64,000 nucleotides of DNA from positions 1,178,001-1,242,000 of the forward strand of contig NZ_CP007145.1 in NCBI RefSeq assembly GCF_000576555.1, written 5' to 3'. Shown here one piece after another: positions 59,773 to 64,000 of the stretch; position 1 is the first letter of the stretch, and every line of letters starts with the position of its first letter. This stretch comes from Hymenobacter swuensis DY53. GTDB lineage: Bacteria > Bacteroidota > Bacteroidia > Cytophagales > Hymenobacteraceae. The translations under genes and the position numbers were made by a program. The notes beneath the pieces were generated by a model that was not told the origin of the DNA, made no database searches, and saw nothing but the letters and a program-made list of their open reading frames with translations.

Positions 59773-59916
59773 AGGATGCAAGTAGGGGAAAATGCGGCAC
59801 TGCGCGCCGTACGCTGCCAAAACGAGGCTTGTTAGTCCCCGGCCTCAACCGGCTTGCCTTATTGTTAAGAAATTTATTTTGCTCCCGGAGCGGCAAAGTT
59901 TCCGAAAAAAATCCTC

Positions 59917-59924
59917 TAGTTTTG
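59917..59924 (+). promoter_or_regulatory. TAnnTTTG promoter box of the GNAT-argG-argC-argD operon
   Basis: The plus strand reads TAGTTTTG, followed by C. It lies 67 nt before the leader reading frame and 446 nt before the first structural gene, which implies a long 5' leader. Confidence 0.55.
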
Positions 59925-59991
59925 CAACGATTTAGCGGTTTAAACGATTTAAACCGTGAAAACACGCCTTCGCTGTTCTGCGGCAACCGTC

Positions 59992-60060
59992 ATGATTCAA
60001 CTCTCTTCTATTGCGCTTCTGCGACGACCTCGACTGGTCGTGCGAATCATGCCAGCTTAA
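59992..60060 (+). CDS. candidate arginine leader peptide (22 aa)
   Basis: This short frame starts at an ATG 67 nt after a TAnnTTTG box. Its centre reads LLRRPRLVVR, with four arginines, every one encoded by CGA, a codon rarely seen in the neighbouring genes. The rest is hydrophobic. The arginine codons form one arm of a 6-bp hairpin (60024-60029 with 60036-60041), and the TAA lies in the loop of a second (GCCAGC-N6-GCTGGC, 60051-60068). The position in front of an arginine operon and the codon bias make a control peptide likely (inference). Confidence 0.6.
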   Translation: MIQLSSIALLRRPRLVVRIMPA

Positions 60061-60319
60061 CCGCTGGCTGCAATAGTACGTCCGGGTTCCGCCTCTACCG
60101 CGAACCGACGCCGGGTCCTCCTACCGGAGCCCACCCCAAGAGACCTTTTACGAATCAACCGACCTTAGTCCGAGTGTAACTTTCAGTGTGACTTCTTCCG
60201 GCCCTCGGTCGGAATGCCCCGCTCCCCGGCCCAACGGGCCCACCTCGCTTTCGGGTTTTTGATGCTTCCGGCCCCGCCGCCGGAGCCCGCGCAGCCTCGC
60301 CTGCTCCCTTCCTTTTTTG
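60024..60319 (+). promoter_or_regulatory. attenuator-like leader of the arginine operon
   Basis: This region between the leader peptide and the first gene has no other supportable frame. Visible helices are 60024-60041 and 60051-60068 in the peptide region, TTCCGGCC/GGTCGGAA at 60196-60214, GGCCC-AAC-GGGCC at 60228-60240 followed by T5 at 60256-60260, and a GGAG..GCAG/CTGC..CTCC fold ending near 60309 before T6 at 60314-60319. The last two could serve as terminators. Which helices exclude each other was not computed. Confidence 0.5.
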
Positions 60320-60370
60320 TCTTTCCGAGTCTGTAGCCGTATACCATCGGCCACTAACCGAGTCCTGACC

Positions 60371-60940
60371 ATGATTCTACGAGTCGCCAATGCTGCCGAT
60401 GCGCAGTATGTGGAAACCCTTTGCCAGTGGTATGCCGAATCCGCCAGAACGCGGGGCGTCGGCATTGCCAAGCGTGATCCTAACTATCTGCTAAAGAAGA
60501 TGGAAAAGGGTGACTCTGTCATCGCCTTCATCGATGACCAACTAGCCGGTTTCTGCTATATCGAAACCTTCGAGGACGCGAAATTCGTGGTGAACTCGGG
60601 GCTGATTGTGAACACCGAGCTACGCAAGGAGGGCCTGGGCCGTGCCATCAAGCACCGAGTGTTTGAGCTGTCGCGCACCAAGTATCCGGCGGCCAAGATT
60701 TTCGGTATCACCACCTCGGCGGCCGTAATGAAGATCAACAACGAGTTGGGCTACCGCCCCGTGACCTTCCCCGAACTGACCCAGTCGGACGACTTCTGGA
60801 AGGGCTGCTCCAGCTGCAAAAACTACGGCATCCTGATGGAAAACGAGCGGAAAATGTGCCTCTGCACCGGCATGGTGTACGACACGCTGAACGACAAATT
60901 CAGTCAACAAACCATCGAAATACTGGCGCAGGAGCAATAA
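60371..60940 (+). CDS. GNAT acetyltransferase of the arginine operon, probable N-acetylglutamate synthase
   Basis: This 189-residue GNAT has a clear acetyl-CoA loop region (NSGLIVNTELRKEGLGRAIK, with R/Q-x-x-G-x-G/A). It also has a Cys-rich insert near the C-terminus (WKGCSSCKNYGILMENERKM then CLCTGMVY), which is characteristic of the arginine-linked GNATs of Bacteroidota. It heads the argG-argC-argD operon and most likely acetylates glutamate in the first step. The paired Cys could bind metal. The ATG at 60371 lies at the end of a long leader with an arginine-coding mini-ORF. Confidence 0.85.
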   Translation: MILRVANAADAQYVETLCQWYAESARTRGVGIAKRDPNYLLKKMEKGDSVIAFIDDQLAGFCYIETFEDAKFVVNSGLIVNTELRKEGLGRAIKHRVFELSRTKYPAAKIFGITTSAAVMKINNELGYRPVTFPELTQSDDFWKGCSSCKNYGILMENERKMCLCTGMVYDTLNDKFSQQTIEILAQEQ

Positions 60941-61058: not shown

Positions 61059-62246
61059 ATGAAAAAAGTAGTTCTCGCCTACAGTGGCGGCTTGGATACG
61101 TCTTATTGCGTTGTGTACCTGACCCGGGAGTTGGGTTTGGAAGTTCACACGGTGATTGTCAACTCAGGCGGTTTCTCCCAGGAGGAGCTGGCTGGCATCG
61201 AGCAGCGCGCCTACGAAATGGGCTCCACCCGCCACGAGGTGATTGACGTGACCGAGCGGTTCTACCAGCAGTGCCTGCGCTACCTGCTGGCCGGCAACGT
61301 GCTCAAAAACGACACCTACCCGCTGAGCGTGAGTGCCGAGCGCATGTTCCAGAGCCTGGCGCTGGCCGAGTATGCCCGCGAGAACAAGGCCGACTACATT
61401 GCTCACGGCAGCACCGGCGCCGGCAACGACCAGGTACGCTTCGACGTGGCCTTCTCGGTGATTTCGCCCGACACCGAAATCATCACGCCCATCCGCGACC
61501 TGGGCCTCTCGCGCCAGCAGGAAATCGAGTATCTGCAGGCCAATGGCGTGGAGATGAGCTGGGAAAAAGCCAAATACTCCATCAACAAGGGCATCTGGGG
61601 TACCAGCGTGGGCGGCGTGGAAACCCTGACCTCGCGCCAGGGCCTGCCTGAGTCGGCCTGGCCGACGCAGCTGAGCAAGCACGAGCCGCAGGAAATCAGC
61701 ATCACCTTCGAGAAAGGGGAGCCGGTGGCCCTGAACGGTAAGGCCATGAAGCCGGTGGACCTGATTGTGGCCCTCAACGAACTGGCCGGCCAGTACGCCA
61801 TCGGCCGCGACACCCACGTGGGCGACACGATTCTGGGTATCAAGGGCCGCGTAGGCTTCGAGGCGCCCGCGCCGCTGATCCTCATCAAAGGCCACCACTT
61901 GCTGGAAAAGCACACCTCCAGCCGCTGGCAGCTGCTGCACAAGGACTACATCGCCAACTGGTACGGCACGCTGCTGCACGAGGCCCAGTACCTCGACCCG
62001 GTGATGCGCGACATGGAGGCGTTCCTGGAATCGTCGCAGGAGCGGGTGTCGGGCACGGTATACGTGACGCTGAAGCCCTACCAGTTTGAGCTGCTGGGCG
62101 TGGAGTCGCCGTTTGATATGATGCAGTCGAAGGTGGCCACCTACGGCGAGGAAAACAACGCTTGGGACTCGCGCGACGCGAAAGGCTTCATCAAAATCTT
62201 CAGCAACCAGTTGCGGATTCACGGCTCGTTCAACGATGAAAATTAA
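61059..62246 (+). CDS. argG: argininosuccinate synthase
   Basis: The 395-residue enzyme joins citrulline and aspartate using ATP. It opens KKVVLAYSGGLDTSYCVVYL, the PP-loop pyrophosphatase motif. YIAHGSTGAGNDQVRFDVAF (substrate site), ITPIRDLGLSRQQEIEYLQA and SINKGIWGTSVGGVE follow, with the synthetase domain to the end. Its last 11 nt overlap the start of argC, so the two are translationally coupled. Confidence 0.97.
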   Translation: MKKVVLAYSGGLDTSYCVVYLTRELGLEVHTVIVNSGGFSQEELAGIEQRAYEMGSTRHEVIDVTERFYQQCLRYLLAGNVLKNDTYPLSVSAERMFQSLALAEYARENKADYIAHGSTGAGNDQVRFDVAFSVISPDTEIITPIRDLGLSRQQEIEYLQANGVEMSWEKAKYSINKGIWGTSVGGVETLTSRQGLPESAWPTQLSKHEPQEISITFEKGEPVALNGKAMKPVDLIVALNELAGQYAIGRDTHVGDTILGIKGRVGFEAPAPLILIKGHHLLEKHTSSRWQLLHKDYIANWYGTLLHEAQYLDPVMRDMEAFLESSQERVSGTVYVTLKPYQFELLGVESPFDMMQSKVATYGEENNAWDSRDAKGFIKIFSNQLRIHGSFNDEN

Positions 62247-63216
62247 GGCTGGTATCGTCGGCGGGGCCGGCTACACGGCGGGGGAGTTGCTGCGGATTCT
62301 GTTGCACCACGAGTTTGTGGAGCTGGGCGGCATCGTGAGTTCCTCCAAAGCCGGCAACCCTATCTACCAGGTGCACGACGACCTGGTGGGCGACACGGAG
62401 CTGCGCTTTGCGGCCGCGCTGCAGGGCGACGAGGACGTGGTGTTCCTGTGCCTGGGCCACGGCAACTCCAAGGCCTGGCTGACCCAGAACCCGCTACCCG
62501 AAACCACCCACGTCATCGACCTGAGCAACGACTTCCGCCTGGAAGCCGACGCCGAGTTTGGAGGCCGGGAGTTTGTGTACGGGCTGCCGGAGCTGAACAA
62601 AAGCCAAATCCAGCAGGCCCAGAGCATTGCCAACCCCGGCTGCTTCGCCACGGCCATTCAGCTGGCGCTGCTGCCGCTGGCCCAGGCCGGCAAGCTCCAG
62701 GACGACGTGCACGCATCGGCCATTACGGGCAGCACGGGCGCGGGGCAGAGCCTCTCGGAAACCGTGCATTTCTCGTGGCGTACCAACAACGTGTCCATCT
62801 ACAAGCCTTTCACGCACCAGCATTTGGGTGAGATAGGGGAGAGCTTGGCGCAGCTGCAGCACGAGTTGGACGTGGACATCCACTTTGTCCCGTACCGCGG
62901 CAACTTCACCCGGGGCATCTTCGCCAGCGTCTACACGCCGTCGGAGTTGACCCAGGACGAGGCCCGCGCACTGTACCAGCAGTTCTACCAGGACGCCCCG
63001 TTCACCACGGTGTCGGACACGGAAATCCACCTCAAGCAGGTTGTCAACACCAACAAGTGCCTGCTGCACGTGCAGAAACTCGGCAAGCAGCTGCTCATCA
63101 CTTCGGTTATCGACAACCTGGTGAAAGGCGCTTCCGGCCAGGCCGTGCAGAACATGAACCTCATCTTCGGTCTGCCCGAAACGACGGGGCTGGGGTTGAA
63201 GGCCGGGCTGTTCTAG
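62236..63216 (+). CDS. argC: N-acetyl-gamma-glutamyl-phosphate reductase
   Basis: The 326-residue NADPH-dependent reductase makes N-acyl-glutamate semialdehyde. The N-terminal Rossmann motif is KAGIVGGAGYTAGELLRILL. The catalytic Cys is in SIANPGCFATAIQLALLPLA, and VYGLPELNKSQIQQAQ comes before it. The catalytic His lies in VDIHFVPYRGNFTRGIFASV. The start codon overlaps the end of argG by 11 nt. A 100-bp perfect-armed palindrome separates it from argD. Confidence 0.96.
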   Translation: MKIKAGIVGGAGYTAGELLRILLHHEFVELGGIVSSSKAGNPIYQVHDDLVGDTELRFAAALQGDEDVVFLCLGHGNSKAWLTQNPLPETTHVIDLSNDFRLEADAEFGGREFVYGLPELNKSQIQQAQSIANPGCFATAIQLALLPLAQAGKLQDDVHASAITGSTGAGQSLSETVHFSWRTNNVSIYKPFTHQHLGEIGESLAQLQHELDVDIHFVPYRGNFTRGIFASVYTPSELTQDEARALYQQFYQDAPFTTVSDTEIHLKQVVNTNKCLLHVQKLGKQLLITSVIDNLVKGASGQAVQNMNLIFGLPETTGLGLKAGLF

Positions 63217-63377: not shown

Positions 63378-64000
63378 ATGGAGCTTTTCAACGTGTATCC
63401 GCTCGTCAACATTACGCCCGTGAAGGCGCTGGGGGCGAAAATCTGGGACGACAAAGGCCAGGAGTACCTGGATTTTTACGGCGGCCACGCCGTTATCAGC
63501 ATCGGGCACTCGCACCCACACTACGTGCAGCGCCTCACCGAGCAACTCGGCAACATCGGCTTTTACTCCAACTCGGTGCAGATTCCGATTCAGCGGGAGC
63601 TGGCCGAGAAGCTGGGCCGGGTGTCGGGCTACGAGGACTACACGCTGTTTCTGTGCAACTCCGGGGCCGAGGCCAACGAGAATGCGCTGAAGCTGGCTTC
63701 CTTCCACACCGGCAAAAAGCGCGTCATTGCCTTCAAAGGCGCGTTCCACGGCCGTACCTCGGGCGCGGTAGCCGCTACGGATAACGCCAAAATCGTGGCG
63801 CCTTTCAACGCCGACCACCACATCAGCTTCCTGGAGTACGATCTGGCGGCAGTGGAGCAGGTGCTGCAGGGTGGCGACGTGTGCGGGGTCATCATCGAGC
63901 CCATCCAGGGCGTGGGCGGTATCATCATGCCCTCCGATGAGTTTCTGCAGGGGCTGGCGGCGCTGTGCCAGCAGTACGGCGCGTTGCTGCTGGCCGACGA
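63378..64000 (+). CDS. argD: N-acylornithine aminotransferase, 3' end beyond window
   Basis: The frame is open from the ATG at 63378 to the window edge (207 residues shown). It is a class III aminotransferase: it begins MELFNVYPLVNITPVKALGA, then has YLDFYGGHAVISIGHSHPHY, FLCNSGAEANENALKLASFH, AFKGAFHGRTSGAVAATD and GVIIEPIQGVGGII, ending at LLLADE, just before the lysine region. By position in the arginine operon it makes N-acylornithine from the semialdehyde. argF-type transcarbamylase is not in the window and may follow. Confidence 0.94.
   Translation, partial: MELFNVYPLVNITPVKALGAKIWDDKGQEYLDFYGGHAVISIGHSHPHYVQRLTEQLGNIGFYSNSVQIPIQRELAEKLGRVSGYEDYTLFLCNSGAEANENALKLASFHTGKKRVIAFKGAFHGRTSGAVAATDNAKIVAPFNADHHISFLEYDLAAVEQVLQGGDVCGVIIEPIQGVGGIIMPSDEFLQGLAALCQQYGALLLAD

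Follow-up and report, generated by a model that had tools for sequence, protein, structure and literature searches.

A putative arginine-rich leader peptide upstream of the argG operon in Hymenobacter and its counterparts in other Bacteroidota

A leader with a short, arginine-rich reading frame precedes a GNAT-argG-argC-argD operon of Hymenobacter. Does this frame encode a peptide through which arginine supply is sensed, and does the leader act as an attenuator, as had been proposed in an earlier note on this locus? In the window, i.e. the whole stretch of 64,000 nucleotides analysed, argB, an argE-like gene and argH are read leftward, starting from 59772, and GNAT, argG, argC and argD are read rightward, starting from 60371. 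The source of the window is Hymenobacter, and among the best 80 of 591 relatives of its first gene, the nearest with a titled record belong to Hymenobacter spp. (71-92% identity). The promoter box, the leader and the gene order described in the earlier note are present at the place it had given (TAGTTTTG at 59917-59924; GNAT start codon ATG at 60371). We take the box to be a promoter element of the TAnnTTTG type.

59917..59924, + strand: TAnnTTTG-type promoter box TAGTTTTG, read in the sequence
59992..60060, + strand: leader ORF of 22 codons, MIQLSSIALLRRPRLVVRIMPA-stop (ATG at 59992, TAA at 60058-60060; Arg12 and Arg18 conserved)
60371..60940, + strand: GNAT N-acetyltransferase, first gene of the operon (ATG at 60371; NCBIfam match below its cut-off)
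61059..62246, + strand: argG, argininosuccinate synthase (TIGR00032, above cut-off)
62236..63216, + strand: argC (TIGR01850, above cut-off)
63378..64000, + strand: argD, cut by the window end (TIGR00707 is the best match of the partial protein, below cut-off)

DNA matching the leader at E <= 1e-15 was found in 20 of 37 same-genus genomes, the genome of the window included, and all 20 carry argB and GNAT in divergent orientation. The promoter box in these 20 aligned leaders reads TAGTTTTG, TAGTATTG or TACGTTTG. Upstream of the box, the 20 aligned stretches between argB and GNAT show almost no variation in CAAAGTTTCC at 59894-59903, a candidate -33 region or operator. Among 14 fetched loci, 13 of them from outside the genus, GNAT was followed by argG and argC in 11; the other three contained argG only (two loci) or GNAT only (one locus), and two of these three lie on cut contigs.

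The 22-codon frame with four arginines, all encoded by CGA, was confirmed at 59992-60060, with the arginine codons at 60022, 60025, 60031 and 60043. In the peptide of the window RRP is internal and the C-terminal end is MPA; 310 bases separate the leader stop from the GNAT start. Judged by its sequence in relatives (see below), this frame is real and conserved, and we propose the name argL for the putative translated leader peptide. CGA accounts for 33 of the 982 arginine codons (3.4%) in 47 ORFs of the window, and under independent codon choice the chance of four CGA out of four is about 1e-6. All 43 tRNA genes found in the genome were read by ARAGORN; they include tRNA-Arg genes with anticodons ACG, CCG, TCT and CCT, one each. 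In this list, which is incomplete in that tRNA-Ile(GAT) is missing from it, the only decoder of CGA is the single tRNA-Arg(ACG), via inosine. I:A wobble pairing is slow. Rarity of CGA thus holds for the window, and the further supposition that its tRNA is scarce is compatible with one tRNA-Arg(ACG) in an incomplete list.

Conservation of the ORF was followed within the genus, where a GNAT relative occurs in 117 of 120 genomes. The upstream DNA was read in 100 of these 117, 20 of them identified via the leader DNA match and 80 others. Selection by peptide similarity without any length rule (score >= 45; next best 27) placed 57 of 67 loci in a group A. All 57 leaders have an ATG, exactly 22 codons and an in-frame stop (TAA in 48, TAG in seven, TGA in two); indels are absent from the ORF and present directly after the stop, and the distance from stop to gene is 301-354 bases. 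Loss of the frame and frameshifts, either of which would have spoken against a conserved arginine-rich frame, are thus absent from group A. The individual arginine codons fared differently. Codon 12 specifies arginine in 57/57 (CGA 45, CGG 9, CGT 3) and codon 18 is CGA in 57/57, the only position at which CGA is fixed; codon 11 encodes arginine in 46/57, and codon 14, the third arginine of the earlier note, in 7/57. Codon 13 is proline in 53 leaders, with all four proline codons in use, and Pro13, Leu15 and Ala22 vary synonymously. The C-terminus is MPA-stop in 55 and RPA-stop in two of the 57 leaders.

A different leader ORF was found in 33 other Hymenobacter loci (group B), whose GNAT proteins are 72-77% identical. 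It ends with CGA CGA CCC TAG (RRP-stop) in 33/33, mostly as ALVRRP-stop, measures 33 codons in 26 of the 33 and stops 156-188 bases before the gene. In the 31 tabulated members, alanine stands at position -6 in 30, encoded by four codons, and leucine at -5 in 29. Among the last ten Hymenobacter loci, six end with MMRRRV-stop or MTRRRV-stop and one with FLRRQV-stop (MTQALAFLRRQV). No arginine leader ORF was found in L064, L067 and L068 among the 100 Hymenobacter loci read; these three loci keep the CGAGTGTAG element. Across Hymenobacter (L001-L110), at least three dissimilar argG leaders are seen, each with arginine codons near the ORF end. The presence of dissimilar leaders within one genus suggests repeated rebuilding of the leader.

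Beyond the genus, the order was sampled through 40 of its 143 matching genomes, chosen by hand for spread. An ATG-initiated ORF with arginine as next-to-last residue precedes GNAT in 28 of these 40 regions, compared with a mean of 4.2 and a maximum of 10 in 200 dinucleotide-shuffled sets and with 5/40 on the reverse strand; in 12/40 there is no arginine at -2. The leader stop lies mostly 50-210 bases before GNAT. From outside the order, 20 of 55 matching genomes, likewise hand-chosen for spread, were judged by eye: an arginine-rich ORF end was seen in 14 regions, and no clear ORF in six. A blind rule, by which ORFs were selected on arginine count alone and the position of the arginines was ignored, was applied to one ORF per genus label (43, including four from Hymenobacter) and returned arginine at -2 in 32, at -3 in 19 and at -1 in 10, with some plainly wrong picks (e.g. 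L020, L200) kept in. The commonest arginine codon at -2 in this set is AGG (11/32).

The blind rule was also applied to 62 of the 64 titled-record loci L231-L294 (L240 and L243, with short upstream DNA, were omitted), which had been drawn from the best 80 of 591 GNAT relatives. It yielded 51 ORFs, 39 with arginine at -2; a looser ORF rule on 51 titled records likewise gave 39/51. Arginine at -2 was seen in 5/18 ORFs of control stretches 450 bases further upstream, 2/12 of those 860 bases further upstream, 0/15 of those downstream and 3/24 on the reverse strand. No arginine at -2 was found in 23 of the 62 loci, 11 of which are without any three-arginine ORF. In both the one-per-genus set and the further loci, arginine enrichment is found mainly in the last ten codons. 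RP-stop ends 16 of the 51 ORFs of the further loci, and peptide ends vary widely (...SRRRP in Zobellia, ...PRRRP in Muricauda, ...RIPRRR in Balneolaceae, ...RRRPYMPRV in Mucilaginibacter, ...RRRRPRFVRA in Cesiribacter andamanensis); across families, only arginine at -2 recurs among the last residues.

The leader RNA was then considered as a structure. The segment 59930-60371 is more stable than its shuffles (z -2.6; 1/100 as low). Conserved pairing was scored in 56 group A leaders against 500 shuffles, a comparison in which kinship of the sequences inflates support. The elements are as follows.

59936..59956, + strand: P0, 5' hairpin near the expected RNA start, with covariation
59993..59998, + strand: 5' arm of the long-range helix PL, at the leader ORF start (pairs with 60152-60157)
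60008..60015, + strand: 5' arm of P1, CTATTGCG (partner 60069-60076)
60024..60041, + strand: P2, arginine hairpin, codons 11-13 with codons 15-17 (60024-60029 with 60036-60041)
60051..60068, + strand: P3, whose loop contains the leader stop codon (60051-60056 with 60063-60068)
60152..60157, + strand: 3' arm of PL, GAATCA (pairs with 59993-59998)
60171..60179, + strand: CGAGTGTA(A/G) element, kept in 20/20 aligned and 57/57 group A leaders

The arginine hairpin and the hairpin with the stop codon in its loop, both described in the earlier note, are real. P2 shows the compensatory changes among aligned relatives that the note had asked for (10 double-change cells, reached by 0/500 shuffles), with a mean pair probability of 0.83 and values above 0.5 in 52/56 leaders. 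The six pairs of P3 are invariant in 56/56, so that covariation cannot be tested; its loop varies in length. In P0, double changes occur in three of ten pairs (12 cells, reached by 0/500 shuffles) and 79% of cells are paired; the hairpin before the ORF likewise has double changes that 0/500 shuffles reach. P1 is paired in 86% of cells, with three double-change cells (12/500 shuffles reach this number). The long-range helix PL has modest support from sequence comparison: it is paired in 79.7% of cells vs 77.5% in shuffles, its eight double-change cells are reached by 2/500, and ATT to ACT at codon 2 accompanies GAAT to GAGT in five of six genomes. A long-range pairing of the ORF with DNA upstream of GNAT is possible in group B and in Balneolaceae, and translation-sensitive folding may thus recur on unrelated sequences.

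Several other pairings were rejected. Between the ORF start ATGATTC and codons 18-20 (GAATCAT) there are no double changes, and 353/500 shuffles pair as well as observed; helix PX of the single-sequence fold (TCTCTT with AAGAGA) has one double-change cell, reached by 70/500. The 60152 arm might have paired with the GNAT start through a common ATGATTC, with which GNAT begins in just 5/57. RNAalifold on group A proposed pairing of TTGCAACG with CGAGTGTAA, where there is almost no variation and TTG lies within the promoter box. For a second ORF ending at CGAGTGTAA (60171-60179), inspection of the window by eye showed no in-frame ATG, GTG or TTG downstream of the promoter. In L069-type leaders, the RRRV-stop ORF terminates in GGGTGTAG, a sequence related to CGAGTGTA.

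The classical cases of ribosome-mediated attenuation in amino acid operons are the trp, his, leu and ilv leaders. With these the locus shares a short ORF with codons for the pathway amino acid before a biosynthetic operon, and hairpins around these codons and the stop. It differs in that the stretch from the ORF to the first gene yielded no intrinsic terminator, and in that most sampled ORFs have arginine in next-to-last position. The interval 59850-60420 contains no terminator-like site. Of the two T-runs listed in the earlier note, T5 lies at 60256-60260 as given and T6 at 60313-60318, one base off; neither is conserved in the 20 aligned leaders, and a part for them in an attenuator is not borne out. 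Stems that exclude each other depending on the position of a ribosome had likewise been envisaged. When a ribosome was mimicked by masking, P3 was lost at codon 18 or at the stop and P1 at codon 12 or at the stop, because the masking itself covers them; values for PL come from 49 of the 56 leaders with a roughly chosen arm. No exclusive partner stem and no conserved mutually exclusive switch were found in these folds. The earlier reading as a leader peptide is supported, also beyond the window; its attenuator part, for which neither a terminator nor a conserved switch was found, is not supported.

In the order, a weak hairpin with a T-run follows the stop in 6/34 leaders with an ORF. A hairpin and T-run inside the leader ORF are present in L111, L115, L117 and L119, the T-run starting 41 bases before the end of the stop codon; being upstream of the arginine codons, it was rejected as an arginine-controlled terminator. 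In the 57 group A leaders taken together, the DNA after the leader stop is rich in C (34%, against 24% G), which is compatible with Rho. As no intrinsic terminator was found, a classical terminator switch seems less likely to us than Rho-dependent termination or control at the translation of the first gene.

How, then, might arginine be sensed? Sequence comparison makes it moderately probable that arginine is sensed through stalling of ribosomes on the stop-proximal leader peptide, probably at rare codons for this amino acid. ORF counterparts at the same place in many sampled relatives suggest that translating ribosomes measure arginine supply, and argL would let them report this supply to the GNAT-argG-argC-argD operon. 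With charged tRNA-Arg in short supply, ribosomes would slow at the often rare arginine codons (CGA or AGG), the RNA around the ORF end and stop codon (P1, P2, P3) would refold, and operon expression would rise; when arginine is ample, the ribosome would reach the stop and leave. A sensor of tRNA charging is suited to this arrangement because the arginine codons, often rare, are mainly confined to the last ten codons. Replacement of CGA by the common CGG at codon 12 in 9/57 group A leaders counts against rare-codon sensing. Moreover, the non-arginine residues at -12 to -4 of group B look conserved, which argues against a pure codon sensor, as this needs none: 12 of 22 one-step synonymous variants were seen there vs 12 of 59 non-synonymous ones (p 0.004), with no synonymous excess at -33 to -13 (p 0.59). 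Group A also shows a synonymous excess (p 0.013), and a third-position test is borderline for both (502/10000 permutations for B -16 to -4; 426/10000 for A). These excesses would fit an arrest peptide, whose nascent chain senses free L-arginine: once a terminal Arg-Pro (or Arg-Ala, Arg-Val) has been made and the stop codon occupies the A site, bound L-arginine would block release, and the stalling would turn off the operon. RNA folds could also constrain codons. Arginine is pinned at -2 and proline is often last (RP-stop in 16/51 further loci and 33/33 group B leaders), and many Flavobacteriaceae leaders end in the same way, which recalls the termination-arrest peptides TnaC and SpeFL; TnaC ends with Arg23-Pro24-stop and, according to the accessible text, stalls once the stop codon has reached the A site, Pro24 then being in the P site (PMC8429421). 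TnaC, however, switches on a catabolic operon, here the operon is biosynthetic, and the window's own peptide has its RRP inside and ends with MPA. No non-arginine residue was seen common to families, several peptides carry four to seven arginines, which suits codon counting, and rare codons would be superfluous, so that arrest appears rather unlikely to us. More speculative, and rather unlikely, is a phylum-wide generalisation to stop-coupled arginine leader peptides of Bacteroidota: through the next-to-last arginine (often Arg-Pro-stop), termination itself would sense free L-arginine. Such peptides would parallel, in bacteria and for biosynthesis, the fungal arginine attenuator peptide; they would work with no intrinsic terminator and would have been rebuilt repeatedly on unrelated folds.

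Two further accounts do without arginine sensing by a peptide. A structured RNA, riboswitch-like or a protein site, with an incidental ORF, could draw on conserved P0, P2 and P3, on PL, on the unexplained CGAGTGTA element and on the covarying hairpin after the ORF in Flavobacteriaceae. It is improbable given that the arginine-stop ORF persists across leaders of groups A and B and of other families that otherwise look unrelated, that Pro13, Leu15 and Ala22 vary synonymously, and that Rfam gave no match in the window at the gathering cut-off and only one, far below cut-off, in 16 leader loci. Still more improbable is an ORF serving translation coupling or re-initiation of the first gene. Leader ORFs 11-14 bp before Bacteroidetes genes have been proposed to feed re-initiation, as far as the available excerpt tells (PMC4833913); here the stop is too far from the gene (310 bases in the window, 301-354 in group A, 156-188 in group B, mostly 50-210 in the order), and the arginine enrichment would be left unexplained.

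To our knowledge, no classical leader has been described for arginine biosynthesis. We found no published description of an arginine leader of the argG operon and, in the literature search, no account of arginine control in Bacteroidota. A comparative study of attenuation from 2010 by Lopatovskaya and colleagues is cited in PMC4833913, and an earlier prediction there is possible. In Mycobacterium, cys operons have leader ORFs with cysteine codons, and Rho was raised by the authors as a weak prediction; in the accessible text these leaders share with argL the cognate codons near the stop and the lack of a conserved terminator hairpin, and differ in amino acid and phylum (PMC1262725). The short ORF rbfL of Staphylococcus aureus is reported to sense arginine via rare arginine codons and tRNA supply, as proposed here; in the excerpt available, its target is a biofilm regulator, whose translation it controls by masking the ribosome site, and no arginine biosynthetic operon (PMC13009471). 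The fungal arginine attenuator peptide, mentioned in PMC8429421 and likened here without sequence comparison, is also an arginine-responsive upstream peptide, and unlike argL it is eukaryotic. For amino acid operons of Flavobacterium psychrophilum, 'strong clues' to attenuation by upstream leader peptides were reported, with cyanophycin as the sole mention of arginine in the main text (PMC9723704), and leader-like short ORFs were noted in Bacteroides thetaiotaomicron, arginine being absent from the accessible text (PMC7366714). The putative argG leader peptide can be recognised from Hymenobacter to Flavobacteriaceae and Balneolaceae, has no match in Rfam and could rank among the major regulatory elements of Bacteroidota. 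With its arginine-at-minus-two pattern, it offers a natural series in which a sensor of tRNA charging could be told from arrest by the nascent chain.

In many Flavobacteriaceae, the leader ends with RRRP and the stop lies within CCC-GTAA-GGG. About 20-25 bases after the leader stop a covarying hairpin is found, with GGAAC/GTTCC, GGAAAT/ATTTCC or GGAGC/GCTCC stems. No Rfam match was obtained in six scanned loci with this hairpin. Its loop reads AGGTG(A/T)GTCC in 25 loci picked by that loop (including L246, L255, L265, L268, L279 and L281), and the AGGTGA within it is presumably Shine-Dalgarno-like.
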